Assembly: GCF_007004725.1 (NCBI RefSeq)
Contig: NZ_ML660166.1
Coordinates: 248,001 to 312,000, forward strand
Source: Aliikangiella coralliicola
GTDB lineage: Bacteria > Pseudomonadota > Gammaproteobacteria > Enterobacterales > Kangiellaceae
DNA length: 64,000 nt
Reading direction: 5' to 3'
Below are positions 3,001-8,439 of the stretch, one piece after another. Made by a program: the position numbers and the translations under genes. Each line of letters opens with the position of its first letter. Position 1 is the stretch's first letter. The notes beneath the pieces are model-generated. The model saw only the letters and a program-made list of their open reading frames with translations, did no database searches and was not told where the DNA came from.

Positions 3001-3530
3001 TTATGCTTAAGCAGCTGCTTAATATCTTCAGCAGTTTTATCGCCATTAGAAATAGATGCCAACAAATTATCTGCGGCCTCACGGTAATATTTAAATGCAT
3101 TTTCAGCAATCGCCGGCAGGGCTCCTGTCTGCGATAGCAATGGTAACGCAGCGCTCAAACTGGCCGATAAACTATCAATGGTAGTCACGTTCAAACGCGA
3201 AGCGTTTTCAACCAGATGCCAATTTTTTTCTTTGTCCCGTTTCAGTACCTTTTTTGCCATTTTCCAACGAAATCGTTCATGAGGCGCTTCTGGTTCTGGT
3301 CCTTGCGCTAAAGTTAATGCAGAGACCACTCGGCTTCGCATTTCAGCGGCTGCTTTTCGGGTAAAAGTAATCGCAAGAATATTTTCCGGTTTTTCTACAG
3401 CGGCTAACAACGCAAGGATTCTCTGAGTGAGTAACTCAGTCTTACCAGACCCTGCCGGAGCCTGCACAATATACGACTCAACCGGGTTAAGCACCTCTTC
3501 TCGCACTGACTGATCAATTACATTACTCAT
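1..3530 (-). CDS. UvrD/RecB-type helicase-nuclease, AddA-like (3' end outside window)
   Basis: Superfamily 1 helicase fused to a RecB-type nuclease, expected to process double-strand breaks with the AddB-like partner encoded just upstream. Reading from the ATG at 3530, Walker A APAGSGKT lies at residues 24-31, the Walker B motif DEFQDT starts at D471, and a late motif reads VMTIHKSKGLEF. The nuclease motif IIDYKSS has D1140 and K1142. The frame stays open to base 1, so only the extreme C-terminus is missing. Its start overlaps the partner's stop by 8 bp (ATGAGTAA), implying translational coupling. Family assignment is firm. Equating it with AddA rather than another UvrD/RecB fusion is an inference. 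Confidence 0.9.
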   Translation of the reverse strand, partial: MSNVIDQSVREEVLNPVESYIVQAPAGSGKTELLTQRILALLAAVEKPENILAITFTRKAAAEMRSRVVSALTLAQGPEPEAPHERFRWKMAKKVLKRDKEKNWHLVENASRLNVTTIDSLSASLSAALPLLSQTGALPAIAENAFKYYREAADNLLASISNGDKTAEDIKQLLKHKDNNLNLVSELIAQMLGKRLQWLAQIGAHGRRFNQQLLARSLDVVVRNTLKNIYDIIPVDVLSELPALLNQASAVLRNSEKVTKHYLCDLQPVDAIVRPDWLDKKTCISANYEESDFFEHEVELAEELYLWKAIAELFLKASGKGEILSRFNVKNGFPPEKNAKDEIEKQQFKQNKKRVDEIAKCLKAHSGVGSLLYQVTILPDRYNFVHTEQDGFDSEPLSHEQSDKEQTYQSLNSAIALLPVALAHLKIVFSRHNVIDFSELALASLEALGHEDMPSDLALALDYKLEHILIDEFQDTSTPQIELIKLLTAGWERDSGRTLFLVGDPMQSIYRFRDANVSLFMRIRNRGIGIIKPKFRQLKVNFRSHKTIVDWVNRQFSQIMPEEEDLTFSAVSYADSVAFNQSSKSAQVESFFTVDADNNIAQANKVIEIVQSHLDENRQLEKKKTLAILARSRTNFTEIIELLNQNNIDFEAVEIDRLSQKIIVSDLTSLAFALCDQFDELSWAACMRSPWFGLDLQDIKQVFTETEQGMSIPERIVRAMPMMSKGSRARCEKILPILQSTIRFKGRKPFRKWLLGCFVALGGLSQLDYQSERDDLLVCLDKLSELSEGGELNDRQLVIEAIEQLFAASSPAADGQVQVMTIHKSKGLEFDTVILPRLDSGKKMADQVLLKWTQVLDEEGNGHNLIAISKETGRENDSVYRYISYLDNEKSKYEDQRVLYVAATRAKQNLYLLGNVKTDSKSGSPSEPAYKPATSLSYLAMLWQGVKDDFKIINGFEGKNINSKLADSVQIEQEKSESVDSFYESRMIKQVNISRTAQMPQQTIPDELPAGEAIAGAQEELGQAISDGASTIGTVLHRQLQWVSEHWHDAFELPQNWAQVTSAQLRQLHWFSDDELDDAVSKILYGLKETLNDDFGRFVLSAKEEAESELILHKKLEHGNYLTRIIDRTFVDSGVRWIIDYKSSQPEKKESLEEFLQRETALYLTQMTDYFNMFVS

Positions 3531-6288
3531 CGCTGGATTTACTTTTTCCTGTGTCACTAACGGTTAATTCTTCTGCCTCGGGTTGCGTCTCAGATATCCT
3601 GCAAAAAGCTGAAAATTCGCAATATCGACACGATTCAGTTCTACTTTTGGGAGATACCGGCATATCACCGCTTGAAATTTTTTCAACCAGCGCTTCGAGG
3701 TTTCTCTTCCACTGTTGCGCAAGGGATGCCGACCTATCAATCAATTCGGCATTACTTTGTAAATATTTGGTTTTATCTTTTTCCTGTCCCAACCCTTTTT
3801 CTAAAAATCGATAAGTGGTTTCATCTGCTTTGTCATCACTTTTTTGATTTGATTTTTGTTCATTAAACCAAACGCCACTTATCGATATTTCGCCAGTTTT
3901 AATTTTAGCGTAGGATAAACTTTCAATCATTTCGTCACTACATGCCAAAACATAAGCAGGCATTTGGGCTTCTTCCGGTCTTTTTCCCAACCATTTTTTA
4001 AAATCCGTTTGCCCTGTTTTATAATCGATAATCTCAATGCTACCGCTTTGCTGTTCACTGTCATTAGTAATCCGATCAATTCGATCTACTCGAAATTTAA
4101 ACTCTAACTGACCGAGACGTAGACTTTTATCAACTTCTGTTTCAACTTCAAAAGGTTTGCGCGTCTTCTCTAATTCAAGCCACTCACAAATTTGTGAAAT
4201 AAGTTTTTGATATTCGATATCAATGATTTCCGCAGGCGCGCTGGCAAAGAGTTCAGATTCAAATTCAGATTTTGATGTTTCTAAAATACGCGCAACTTGT
4301 TGCTTAATTTCAGTTGGAGAAAGCGACAATAATTTTGCTTGAGTTTTTAGTTCATCCCACAAAAGCTCCATCGAACGATGTAGCCAGGCGCCTTTGGTTT
4401 TTGCTTCAATTCCCTTTACTTGCTGTTGCGTACCTCTCAATTGAAACTGAAACCTGGCCATCGCTTTAAACGGGCAACTGGCATATTGACCGAGTAGATA
4501 AGCACCACCGGAAATTTTACCGGCAGGCAGTTCCACATTGTCATCGTAACGCCAATGATAATCAGGAGTCACCGGCAACAAAGGCTCTAAGATTTGAGCG
4601 TTAATATTTTCCTCTGTTGGAAATCGAATAAAAAATGGAGATGCGGTGGAAAGTTCATCATCAGCTGCAACACTCTCGGTTATCCAGATTTGACTGGCAC
4701 TTTGTAATAAAGATTGCGACAAACTTTGAGCGTACTCAAACTCGCGCTCAGCAGAACATGACGGCATAGCGTTAGCTTGCTGAAAAGCAATTGGTAAAAA
4801 CGGGTTTGATTTTACTTTTTGCGGCCAATTATCGCGATTAAATCCAACTAAAATCGTCTTATCAAATACCAGACCGCTGGCCTCGAGAACTCCTAGCACA
4901 TGAACATTCGTTCTGTCGCTGGGAAGTTGGAAAGCGGTTTGCTTTAGCAGCTGTAATAAAAATTCTCGCGCGAGATTAACTTTAACTTTTTTATAGACGA
5001 TGGCTAACTTTGATGTTTGTTTTATCAGAGCCTTAAACTCAACCAATAACTTCTGCTCTGCCTCATCAAAGTCGTACTCATGGCACCAACCCCACTGGCG
5101 TAATACTGAATTCCAGAAATCCCCCCAGGCAGTCATCGTCCTTGAGTAATTTTGTCTATTTTGCAGTTCATCGATTCTTTGCCGTAAAACAGAAAGCTTT
5201 GAGGATTCCGGTGACTGGTCAATAGCATTAATTAAGTAATGGTAGGAATATTTCGCATAAGCCAACAAACCTTGTTGGTAAAGAAAGCGTTTGATTGAGC
5301 CTTCCTCTGCCCCCCAATTGATATATGGCGTGTTTTTGATAAATAACAGTGATTGCAGATCCAAGCCTGAGCTTTGAAAACTGATTATTTTAACTGCTGC
5401 CGACACCATCGGCATTTGCTGAATAGGCTGACCGGCAGACACATTGTATTGACATTTTTTGAGAGAATTCCATGGCAAAGATTCATCTGGCTGAAAATAG
5501 TCACTAAAGATTTGATGAACCAGGTCGAGATGACTTGCCAACTGATTAACAACAACGGCGACGGAAGTCGTCGATGAATCGGCGGCGGAATCTCTGGCTA
5601 TGGCTGCTGCAATTTCTACTTCCTGTCTAAAATCTAATACTTCAATTCTCGATACTTTATCTGCCGAGCATTTTGCTGTGAATTCATTCACTTCAATATT
5701 AAAAGACTGGCATTTCTTAAATAATGATTTTTCTGCCGGCGTTAGTTGGTTAAAACCGACCAAAACAATTTTCGTCGGCAGCCTGTCAGTAACCAGATCT
5801 AATCTATCTAATACGAAATTGGTAATCGCAAATTCTGGAATTAGTGCTTTATCCTGTAAAAATGACTCTAGTTGTTTGCTCCACCGAATAAAGTAATGGT
5901 GTTCCGGCACTTCAGCCTGTTCGATATCATCAATGCACAATTCCCATTGTATAAGGTTTCTGTACGCTTCCAACGCTTTTTCAGCAACCCCTAATTCGTT
6001 CGTCAGTTGCCAATTGTCTGTGTTGGCTATTTGTTCTTTTAACCAGGTTTTTAGTTCCAGGTTTCCAATAATTGACGGAATAGACTCGATAAATGAAATT
6101 TCCTGCCACAGGTTCTGCAACCATTGAGACAAAGATAAAACATCAGGTGCTCTTACAACTTGTCGCTCTGCTTCGTTCTTTAATGCACCAACGACCACTG
6201 CTCCCTGGGTTCGTGAGTTGGGTGTCAGTATTAAAGTCGAATCATCGACAAGCGTGGCCAGTTCATCGTAATTGATGCTGATGGGCAT
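3523..6288 (-). CDS. AddB-like PD-(D/E)XK nuclease, probable DNA repair protein
   Basis: 921-residue protein resembling the gammaproteobacterial AddB relatives called 'probable DNA repair protein'. The C-terminal nuclease carries IIDYKTG with D755 and K757. Four cysteines are placed as in the AddB 4Fe-4S nuclease: C605 in ASCPFKAMARF, then C887-x2-C890-x5-C896. The N-terminus begins LILTPNSRTQGAV, where AddB helicases would have Walker A, and no GKT/GKS is present. The helicase half is therefore probably inactive. First gene of a two-gene operon with the AddA-like helicase (8-bp overlap). The pair would stand in for RecBCD, though absence of recBCD cannot be judged from this window. Confidence 0.85.
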   Translation of the reverse strand: MPISINYDELATLVDDSTLILTPNSRTQGAVVVGALKNEAERQVVRAPDVLSLSQWLQNLWQEISFIESIPSIIGNLELKTWLKEQIANTDNWQLTNELGVAEKALEAYRNLIQWELCIDDIEQAEVPEHHYFIRWSKQLESFLQDKALIPEFAITNFVLDRLDLVTDRLPTKIVLVGFNQLTPAEKSLFKKCQSFNIEVNEFTAKCSADKVSRIEVLDFRQEVEIAAAIARDSAADSSTTSVAVVVNQLASHLDLVHQIFSDYFQPDESLPWNSLKKCQYNVSAGQPIQQMPMVSAAVKIISFQSSGLDLQSLLFIKNTPYINWGAEEGSIKRFLYQQGLLAYAKYSYHYLINAIDQSPESSKLSVLRQRIDELQNRQNYSRTMTAWGDFWNSVLRQWGWCHEYDFDEAEQKLLVEFKALIKQTSKLAIVYKKVKVNLAREFLLQLLKQTAFQLPSDRTNVHVLGVLEASGLVFDKTILVGFNRDNWPQKVKSNPFLPIAFQQANAMPSCSAEREFEYAQSLSQSLLQSASQIWITESVAADDELSTASPFFIRFPTEENINAQILEPLLPVTPDYHWRYDDNVELPAGKISGGAYLLGQYASCPFKAMARFQFQLRGTQQQVKGIEAKTKGAWLHRSMELLWDELKTQAKLLSLSPTEIKQQVARILETSKSEFESELFASAPAEIIDIEYQKLISQICEWLELEKTRKPFEVETEVDKSLRLGQLEFKFRVDRIDRITNDSEQQSGSIEIIDYKTGQTDFKKWLGKRPEEAQMPAYVLACSDEMIESLSYAKIKTGEISISGVWFNEQKSNQKSDDKADETTYRFLEKGLGQEKDKTKYLQSNAELIDRSASLAQQWKRNLEALVEKISSGDMPVSPKSRTESCRYCEFSAFCRISETQPEAEELTVSDTGKSKSSDE

Positions 6289-6608: not shown

Positions 6609-6610
6609 TT

Positions 6611-6640
6611 AAAAAAGGCAGCTAAGAAGCTGCCTTTTTT
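6611..6640 (-). terminator. Intrinsic terminator of the CsrB-like RNA
   Basis: Seven-bp perfect GC-rich stem GGCAGCT/AGCTGCC (6617-6623 with 6628-6634), 4-nt loop, and six T residues on either side. On the minus strand it ends the GGA-rich RNA. The A/T symmetry would let it work on the plus strand too. Confidence 0.9.
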
Positions 6641-6901
6641 AAATTTCTTCGACCTATCCAAGTATAATCCGTTGCCGTTTCCGATTTGGCTCCGTCAAAT
6701 TCCTCAAGTCCTTCTCTCAATTCCATTGACAGGTAACCCTTTTACCACTATCCAATAAATCCTTTGCAATCCATGCCGTCTTCCTGACATATTCCTTTCT
6801 CACACCTACTAAGTTCGTCTTTGAACTTATCCATCACACCAGTTTCCTACCGGTCGCTTTTCCCTTAAGCGGTGTTTCCTTGTCAATTCATCCTTGGCAC
6901 A
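6611..6901 (-). ncRNA. csrB: CsrB/RsmB-family CsrA-sequestering small RNA
   Basis: On the minus strand the roughly 290-nt stretch between a promoter-like element and a strong terminator contains 17 GGA trinucleotides (6657-6893). They are spaced about 10-20 nt apart, many in contexts such as AAGGA, CAGGA, ATGGA and TAGGA. This is the hallmark of CsrB/RsmB RNAs, which titrate the translational regulator CsrA/RsmA. No plausible open reading frame covers the region on this strand. It lies in a long gap between the AddAB-like operon and a kinase-like gene. The 5' end is estimated from the promoter and is good to about 10 nt. The family call comes from motif density and architecture, not from a covariance search. 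Confidence 0.82.
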
Positions 6902-6907
6902 GGAGAA

Positions 6908-6935
6908 ATTCTAGTCGAAACAGATTTACAAACAA
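6908..6935 (-). promoter_or_regulatory. Candidate sigma-70 promoter of the CsrB-like RNA
   Basis: Minus-strand -35 TTGTTT (6930-6935), 16-bp spacer, -10 TAGAAT (6908-6913). It would start transcription near 6901, just before the first GGA motif. Confidence 0.55.
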
Positions 6936-6958
6936 GCGAGAAGTTTCCAAGTTTTTGA

Positions 6959-6975
6959 AGGACAGCGATTGTCCT
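6959..6975. promoter_or_regulatory. Palindrome upstream of the CsrB-like RNA promoter
   Basis: Perfect inverted repeat AGGACA-N5-TGTCCT centred about 66 bp upstream of the inferred start. It sits where an upstream activator site of a BarA/UvrY (GacS/GacA) response regulator would lie. The half-site differs from the known TGTAAG-N6-CTTACA consensus, so the regulator's identity is open. Confidence 0.4.
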
Positions 6976-7077
6976 GACATTTGAAAAAAGTTAATAAATT
7001 ATATTTATCAATAAGTTAAGCGTTTTTTTATAAAATGGAAGGCATTAATTCTTAACTGTTTTTAGGCGATATCCCAC

Positions 7078-7104
7078 GGCTTTGTGAGAGATATCTCACA
7101 AGCC
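7078..7104. repeat. Inverted repeat in the gap after the CsrB-like RNA
   Basis: TGTGAGA (7083-7089) pairs with TCTCACA (7094-7100) across a GATA loop, extended by GGCT/AGCC with one bulged T. There is no T-tract on either side, so it does not look like an ordinary terminator. The rest of 6976-7317 is AT-rich with no gene that I can support. Confidence 0.5.
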
Positions 7105-7317: not shown

Positions 7318-8439
7318 CTATTGGGATATTCCCACGGGATAAACCACAAAATCACGATACCCGGTAATAACCCTTTTTCTGCCAACAAGCTCATTATCGA
7401 GTGCCGCGTCACCTGTATCGGTTAATAAAGGCCTTCCATCTAATTGATTGAGTTTGGACTTGGTCGCAATCACCTCAAAATTTTTCCAGCCTGCCTGACG
7501 AATCACTTCGGGGCTGTACTGATGATTACCTCTGCCGAGTATATGCCCCTGGCCACCTATCACGGTAATGATAAACTTAAGTTGTTTTCCTTGCGCCAAT
7601 AGTTCGAGGAAATCTTTCTCAATGGCGTCTTCTCGGTATAGTTCGCCCTGAAAAACGATATCAGATCCAAGTAGTGTGTTGTTCAAATTAAGCTGTTCCA
7701 TCACTACCGCACAAGTTGTTCCAGAACCAATAACGTAATAAGTGTCGTCTTCCATTGACTCAATGACTTCCGCTGCAATATCGTCAAGGACAAGCTCTTC
7801 TAATTCTCGACCACCACTTTTGACCGCCTGAACATAAGCGAGTGCACCCGGGACATTAAGATTGCCATACTGCCTTGCTTTGACGACCCCCTCTCTGAAA
7901 GCATTTTCGTCAATATCCATCACATCTGCCGACAGCAAGCTCAAAATCTTACCTTCGATCATTTCCTTGACCAATAATCCCGCAGCCTGGGGAGTGATAG
8001 CGTAAACGCCTGAGTGAATCTTGACGCCGGCAGGAATACCAAGAACTAGCTGTTCTTCGTCACATACCTGGTAAATATTTCGCGCCGTTCCATCACCACC
8101 AGCAAACAACAACAGATCAACTCCCTGCTGCTGAATAACCTTAACCGCATTGCAGGTGTCCTTCTCGGTCGAAGGTTGTTCAGCCTGCACTAGCGTGTGA
8201 TATGAAAAACCGAGTCGACGGCATAGGTCTTCCCCCATATCTCCCGATACGGTAAACACTTCAAATGAGTCAGCTAGCGGCAATAGGACCTCGAGCGCAA
8301 TAGAAGCTTTTGACTGTGCAAGTTTGATCGCTCCCATCTGCATGGCTTTTTCGCGAATCGTTTGTCCATCGCTTCCTTTTAATCCAATACGCCCGCCGAT
8401 ACCAGCAAAAGGATTAACGATTAAGCCAAGTTTAAACAT
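7318..8439 (-). CDS. ATP-NAD kinase family protein (AcoX-like)
   Basis: 373-residue protein with the NAD-kinase/diacylglycerol-kinase fold signature. The N-terminus is GLIVNPFAGIGG (residues 5-16) and the nucleotide-binding motif GGDGT lies at 114-118, within LLLFAGGDGTARN. This matches the predicted ATP/polyphosphate-dependent NAD-kinase-like family related to AcoX, not the shorter canonical NadK. The true substrate of this family is not established. Its ATG lies inside the end of epmC (8-bp overlap, ATGTTTAA), so the two are co-translated. Confidence 0.8.
   Translation of the reverse strand: MFKLGLIVNPFAGIGGRIGLKGSDGQTIREKAMQMGAIKLAQSKASIALEVLLPLADSFEVFTVSGDMGEDLCRRLGFSYHTLVQAEQPSTEKDTCNAVKVIQQQGVDLLLFAGGDGTARNIYQVCDEEQLVLGIPAGVKIHSGVYAITPQAAGLLVKEMIEGKILSLLSADVMDIDENAFREGVVKARQYGNLNVPGALAYVQAVKSGGRELEELVLDDIAAEVIESMEDDTYYVIGSGTTCAVVMEQLNLNNTLLGSDIVFQGELYREDAIEKDFLELLAQGKQLKFIITVIGGQGHILGRGNHQYSPEVIRQAGWKNFEVIATKSKLNQLDGRPLLTDTGDAALDNELVGRKRVITGYRDFVVYPVGISQ

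Follow-up and report, generated by a model that had tools for sequence, protein, structure and literature searches.

The closest described systems belong to the Csr family of CsrA-titrating small RNAs (sRNAs). For csrB of E. coli, the available part of the published account (PMC4682653) centres the palindrome at -183/-182 and gives a TGTAGGAGA element 5 bp beyond it, as well as a putative IHF site between the palindrome and the promoter. The lineage-restricted Csr sRNA Pf1 of Pseudoalteromonas is described, in the part of its report that is available (PMC9927453), as having 21 GGA motifs and a putative GacA site and as regulating glycogen synthesis in E. coli; all 260 of its database matches are given there as lying in Pseudoalteromonas. 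For Kangiella and Aliikangiella (Kangiellaceae), we found no description of a Csr sRNA among the titles and abstract openings listed in searches of the openly licensed literature.

The window analyzed here is a stretch of 64,000 nt (C7:248001-312000) from the 7.04 Mb assembly of Aliikangiella coralliicola (genome label G000). The minus strand of positions 6611-6901 very probably encodes a CsrA-titrating sRNA of the CsrB kind, judging from its sequence and that of its relatives. We hold with strong confidence to the whole proposal, in which the locus is a CsrB/RsmB-type sRNA gene activated by phosphorylated UvrY (UvrY-P) and IHF, with an RNA that titrates CsrA. An earlier note, made from the letters of the window, had proposed a CsrB/RsmB-type RNA at this place; that reading is supported, mostly through evidence beyond the note's own, namely the UvrY box, the IHF consensus, the spacing, the circuit genes and the relatives. 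Two outcomes that the note had named as refuting it, GGAs outside loops and a lack of conservation in related genomes, did not occur in the fold model or in the relatives. The marks of the CsrA-sponge class that we looked for were many GGAs mostly in loops or single strands, a non-coding RNA with its own intrinsic terminator, a UvrY/GacA box upstream of the promoter, and a genome encoding CsrA, UvrY/GacA and BarA/GacS. The predicted sRNA and both of its flanking genes lie on the minus strand (Table 1).

Table 1. Features of the predicted sRNA locus, in positions of the window
Feature	Position	Strand	Remarks
Predicted CsrB/RsmB-type sRNA	6611-6900	-	About 290 nt, 17 GGA; 5' end predicted from an alignment with the +1 of E. 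coli csrB
Perfect UvrY/GacA palindrome TGTGAGATATCTCTCACA	7083-7100	-	Its start is 200 nt ahead of the predicted +1 (E. coli csrB: 191)
Degenerate second element GTGGGATATCGCC	7065-7077	-	Aligns with the TGTAGGAGA that follows the palindrome of E. coli csrB after 5 bp
IHF consensus site TATCAATAAGTTA	7006-7018	+	82 nt after the box start
Putative core promoter	6908-6935	-	Weak -35-like TTGTTT (6935-6930) and -10-like TAGAAT (6913-6908), read from an alignment
Conserved 3' hairpin GGA(GCC)AAATCGGAAAC(GGC)AA	6672-6693	-	GGA in the loop; pattern search and covariation
Intrinsic-terminator-like hairpin, then TTTTTT	6609-6642	-	Nearly symmetrical; placed on the plus strand by the scan
ATP-NAD-kinase-family gene (PF01513, PF20143)	7318-8439	-	Directly upstream of the predicted sRNA
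EpmC	8432-9034	-	Next after the ATP-NAD-kinase-family gene
TIGR03623 'probable DNA repair protein', PD-(D/E)XK nuclease	3523-6288	-	Downstream of the predicted sRNA

As read from the sequence, the UvrY box, the IHF consensus and their spacing within 6611-7100 match the layout of E. coli csrB. Only two places in the entire assembly fit the UvrY pattern without a mismatch, and the palindrome is one of them; it stands upstream of the putative promoter at a conserved distance. Across ten loci whose 5' end was chosen by motif, the box lies 190-195 nt from that end in eight non-Kangiella loci and 177 nt from it in one Kangiella locus; the tenth (G022) is without a box because its contig starts there. 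IHF sites were counted in 36 loci with a UvrY-type box, comprising 16 non-Kangiella loci (the window included) and 20 of Kangiella. Both strands were searched from 30 to 170 nt past the box start, and the best match per locus was scored. Outside this count stand G022 (box lost to the contig end), G002/OB12 (RNA incomplete), G007, G015 and copies 2 and 3 of G011. A perfect consensus was present in 19 of the 36 loci, against 0.78 expected from shuffles, and was located 80-83 nt after the box start in 18 of these 19 and at 92 nt in G012; the match was imperfect in the remaining 17. Matches with at most one mismatch were found in 34 of 36 loci (12.6 expected), some of them at other positions. In our own scan of E. 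coli csrB, IHF consensus matches lie 86-101 nt after the box start.

The core promoter itself is poorly marked. The earlier note had described a promoter-like element, whereas a consensus promoter scan reported no promoter at 6908-6935; what stands of that description is a TAGAAT and a poor -35 hexamer, read by eye from an alignment with relatives and E. coli csrB. We suggest that the promoter architecture (UvrY box, IHF site and spacing) may be a better handle than the RNA itself for finding CsrA sponges.

Seventeen GGA motifs occur on the minus strand of 6611-6901, at positions 6893, 6879, 6863, 6847, 6832, 6795, 6784, 6772 and 6762 in the 5' part and 6753, 6724, 6711, 6703, 6693, 6682, 6670 and 6659 in the 3' part. 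The earlier count of 17 in about 240 nt was reproduced; it is the maximum per 240 nt across the minus strand of the window, and it exceeds that of every one of 200 dinucleotide shuffles of this strand, in which the maximum averaged 10.3 and reached 14 at the highest. That the motifs stand in CsrA-binding contexts, as had also been claimed, holds for the 11 that have an A two bases ahead (ANGGA) and fails for the other six; a single one reads CAGGA, and most are AAGGA, ATGGA or ACGGA. The sole other spot in the window with at least 10 GGA per 240 nt lies on the minus strand at ~52.3-52.6 kb.

The predicted fold of the window RNA has an energy of -76.5 kcal/mol (z -3.64, terminator included). 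In this model the GGAs lie mostly in loops or single strands, as a CsrB-type reading would have it: the mean unpaired probability is 0.74 at GGA against 0.48 overall, and GGAs exceed the rest of the RNA by 0.33, a gap equalled or surpassed in 2 of 40 shuffles. The model pairs the GGA at 6659. When 11 of the 36 RNAs were folded, no more than 2 of 40 shuffles were as exposed in eight of them; exposure was not clearly above shuffles in G013 (11/40), K185 (3/40) and K203 (21/40).

One GGA-loop hairpin near the 3' end recurs. An automatic hairpin finder was dropped, having chosen different hairpins in different RNAs, and the hairpin was instead located by a pattern with a fixed GGA and a restricted choice of letters at the stem ends, which left pairing free. 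In every one of the 16 non-Kangiella RNAs, the hairpin GGA(RCY)...GGA...(RGY)AA is found 79-99 nt from the 3' end; it shows compensatory changes among them, with 93.3% of alignment cells paired and 10 cells changed on both sides. Across these 16 rows, which are related and not independent, and under a pattern that limited stem-end letters without forcing partners, the covariation score was 0.496 against 0.277 when shuffled; none of 500 shuffles reached it, and it fell to 0.125 or less when the partner was slid. On two other measures, 'pairs with a change on both sides' and 'further pair types', 206 of 500 shuffles did at least as well as the alignment. There are four pairs in the stem, of which one is invariant, and pair 7-17 is unpaired in four rows and gapped in four.

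The intrinsic terminator that the earlier note placed at the 3' end was borne out as a terminator-like hairpin. Read on the minus strand, a stem GGCAGC...GCTGCC, bordered by A6 and T6, is followed by the T-run, and the hairpin is conserved in relatives. The terminator scan reported it on the plus strand only, because the stem swallows the T-run.

The GGA array is conserved in related genomes, with a counterpart of the predicted sRNA in 39 of 40 Kangiellaceae genomes, A. coralliicola included; in the one exception, G015 (93% complete), no locus was found. Relatives keep a GGA array (6 to 41 motifs), the upstream box and the terminator while sequence and length (148 to about 564 nt) diverge, and much of the RNA outside the conserved 3' stretch aligns poorly between them, with GGAs recurring. 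A covariance model of the 3' 125 nt, R1, was built from nine sequences (G000, G001, G003, G004, G005, G006, G013, G018 and G022). Because bare terminators match R1 at ~E 1e-5 and weaker, a threshold of E 1e-9 or better was used, and a figure of 40/40 genomes matching R1 was rejected as a count of the RNA. At this threshold R1 matches 15 of the 40 family genomes, which are the nine of the seed and G008, G009, G011, G012, G016 and G019. G021 and G024 match at E 3e-7 and 1e-7 and have the box and 18 GGAs. When 61 genomes were searched at the DNA level, 25 had matches, largely bare terminators, and for this reason only matches with a UvrY-type box and a GGA cluster were accepted.

Fifteen non-Kangiella relatives have the box and an RNA with 12-26 GGAs, once 41. 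In each of the 20 Kangiella genomes, a relaxed pattern finds a UvrY-type box that starts 27-73 nt past the end of the kinase match and precedes a terminator-ended RNA of 148-175 nt with 6-10 GGAs; R1 gave no match above noise in these genomes. G002 (OB12) has a UvrY-type box and a tandem array, and in G007 the kinase gene is followed by an imperfect box and a cluster of 15 GGAs. Neither the DNA search nor R1 found a paralogue in the A. coralliicola genome, where the next best R1 match (36.1 bits) is this same terminator read on the other strand and the rest score 31.7 bits or less. When R1 was run on 197 sampled genomes of the order, under stricter filters that lose weak matches, it matched only G000 and G009 at 1e-7. 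Both are Kangiellaceae, so that within this sample the model gave no match beyond the family.

The sRNA directly follows the ATP-NAD-kinase-family gene in 28 of 40 genomes, comprising seven of the window's genus (box 37-317 nt after the kinase match), the 20 Kangiella and G007. The box is 2.7-4.5 kb from the kinase gene in G008, G011, G012 and G018, and no kinase gene was found in the 10-16 kb stretch analyzed in each of four genomes of genus g4 (G009, G013, G016 and G019); in this tally G022 is at a contig end, and G021 and G024 are outside the check. Most of the family, though not all of it, thus shares this position. A TIGR03623 homologue adjoins the RNA in five relatives (G001, G004, G005, G012 and G018). 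Among 80 kinase-gene loci, seven reach at least 12 GGA per 240 nt, with those of L061-L065 downstream of the kinase gene. Two loci outside Kangiellaceae, L102 and L128, have 12 GGA per 240 nt each, on the other side of the kinase gene; the other 70 of 72 non-Kangiellaceae loci (L069-L140) have fewer than 12 within ~4 kb of it.

These data have to be set against other readings of the locus. The GGA array could be a mere purine-rich intergenic stretch or an mRNA untranslated region, with no role in titrating CsrA. It does lie between genes of the same strand in an A/G-rich segment (35% A, 31% G), and dinucleotide shuffles of the 297-nt segment alone average 10.9 GGA (sd 2.1); since 7 of 2000 such shuffles reach at least 17, the density is partly, not wholly, a matter of purine-rich composition. 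Composition or an untranslated region is nevertheless a very unlikely account, as the GGA array, the UvrY-type box, its spacing and the terminator are shared across the family despite divergence in sequence and length, and the GGA-loop hairpin recurs outside Kangiella.

We give just as little credence to a UvrY-controlled sRNA that would mainly base-pair with mRNAs (Hfq type) and bind CsrA as a lesser activity. Such an RNA would fit the strong sequence conservation of GGAGCC...GGCAACGGATT near the 3' end, but the conserved 3' hairpin there shows a GGA in its loop and covarying stem pairs, and the rest of the RNA largely aligns poorly, yet its GGAs recur. A small protein is the least credible product of all. 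Although stop-to-stop stretches of 77 and 68 codons are open on the plus strand, they run opposite to the strand of the box, the promoter and the GGA array, and the large length changes between relatives also argue against coding. On the strand of the predicted sRNA the longest frame has 39 codons, and the earlier statement that the stretch holds no open reading frame is, by frame length, correct for this strand.

A CsrA sponge would also have its partners in the genome. A. coralliicola encodes CsrA, UvrY/GacA and BarA/GacS, every one above its curated cut-off: two CsrA genes score 118.4 and 84.9 bits (NCBIfam cut-off 73), UvrY/GacA scores 342.7 bits (cut-off 280) and BarA, a protein of 948 aa, scores 920.7 bits (cut-off 890). 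The second CsrA, at C1:121964 (L033:1459-1656), is divergent, with 48% identity to the main CsrA. In the mechanism that we infer, BarA (GacS) would phosphorylate UvrY (GacA), and UvrY-P would bind the palindrome; IHF would bend the DNA at its site, and the promoter near 6935-6908 would fire. The resulting RNA of ~290 nt, ending near 6611, would bind CsrA dimers through its 17 GGAs, mostly in loops and single strands, and titrate CsrA off mRNAs, thereby switching the CsrA regulon. With the predicted sRNA, the BarA/UvrY/Csr circuit of this marine family would be complete on paper.

Of the two perfect UvrY boxes in the genome, the second (C10 near 278193; L035:1197-1421) has no GGA cluster, with at most 8 per 240 nt. 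This box and a perfect one in G002 (C213; L212:1179-1400) each lie ~100 nt upstream of a DUF6316-type gene, at 97 nt (own genome) and 118 nt (G002) from box start to ATG. The encoded proteins are 73-74 aa long and 39% identical to each other, and one of the two passes the Pfam cut-off. The DUF6316-type small-protein gene is possibly a second direct target of UvrY, which, if true, would give BarA/UvrY a further output besides the sponge.

Sponge size varies widely within the family. The number of GGAs runs from 6-10 in the small-genome Kangiella through 12-26 in most relatives to 41 in G006, whose homologue (L055:5170-5733) is 564 nt long with no tandem repeats called; for E. coli CsrB, the available part of PMC7652899 gives 22 GGAs, roughly half as many. 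In OB12/G002 (L063:5262-5738), a tandem array of 41- and 40-nt units with several GGAs per unit is interrupted by a gap of N and by the end of the contig, and 40 GGA were counted in the 556 nt up to the contig end, 100 N included. G011 (L177) has three successive csr-like RNA genes within 2.4 kb, with UvrY-type boxes at 4642, 5718 and 7054; copies 1 and 3 have 14 and 15 GGAs, and copy 2, with an interrupted T-run, is outside the count. Precedents for multiple copies are csrB1/csrB2 of Shewanella (PMC3171408) and the csrB duplication of Vibrio (PMC6262261), as given in the available parts of these sources. This natural series, differing roughly sevenfold in sponge size and with tandem repeats and gene triplication visible as routes of expansion, makes the elastic number of GGA sites a useful natural experiment. 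Tentatively, and aware that the odds are against it, we propose that GGA number is the means by which Kangiellaceae adjust the capacity of a single CsrA sponge and that UvrY may directly drive the DUF6316-type gene as well. Elsewhere in the A. coralliicola genome, the 18-mer TGTTAGTAATGTCTTAAA occurs in either orientation at C2:65575, C2:454741, C3:5207 and C3:541724, a recurrence at four places that suggests a dispersed repeat.

The expectation that standard annotation would miss this RNA proved right for Rfam, in which no family reached its gathering score anywhere in the window. The predicted sRNA thus falls outside RF00018 (CsrB), RF00084 (CsrC) and RF00166 (PrrB/RsmZ) by that measure. The search with Rfam CsrB/RsmB models that the earlier note had proposed gave no CsrB match in the region up to E 10; a permissive scan returned sub-threshold matches to PrrB/RsmZ (14.4 bits, E 1.1, gathering 44) and CsrC (12.2 bits, E 0.43, terminator part only, gathering 61). 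As a positive control, E. coli csrB scored 380.4 bits with Rfam CsrB. Among seven loci of relatives scanned for Csr matches up to E 1, CsrC scored 24.4 bits (E 0.0012, full model) in G001, 21.2 bits (terminator part) in G018 and 17.3 bits in G005, against the gathering score of 61, and a gathering-score scan of six further relative loci returned nothing. The curated families therefore miss this clade where it was looked for. Being CsrB-like in promoter, GGAs and circuit yet below Rfam gathering scores, the predicted sRNA is, as a well-supported reading, a new clade of the CsrB/RsmB-type CsrA sponge, a kind already known.

Pf1 and the predicted sRNA, likened by description only from the available part of the Pf1 report (PMC9927453), are both Csr-type with GGAs and a putative GacA site. 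CsrC of E. coli differs in that csrC is without an apparent IHF site in the available text of PMC4682653, whereas a consensus site is present here. The likeness to E. coli CsrB extends to many GGAs, 22 in E. coli according to the part of PMC7652899 available and 17 here. It further includes a UvrY palindrome ~190-200 nt upstream of +1 with a TGTAGGAGA-like second element just after it, an IHF consensus between box and promoter, an intrinsic terminator and the BarA/UvrY/CsrA genes. The two differ in length (~290 nt against 369 nt in E. coli) and in position, as E. coli csrB sits between syd and yqcC and the predicted sRNA between the ATP-NAD-kinase-family and TIGR03623 genes, so that the two loci are not positional orthologues. 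The Kangiella versions, at 148-175 nt and 6-10 GGA, are nearer in size to RsmZ of Pseudomonas (RF00166, model length 133), and the pathway logic of Pseudomonas RsmY/RsmZ is the same as that proposed for the predicted sRNA.
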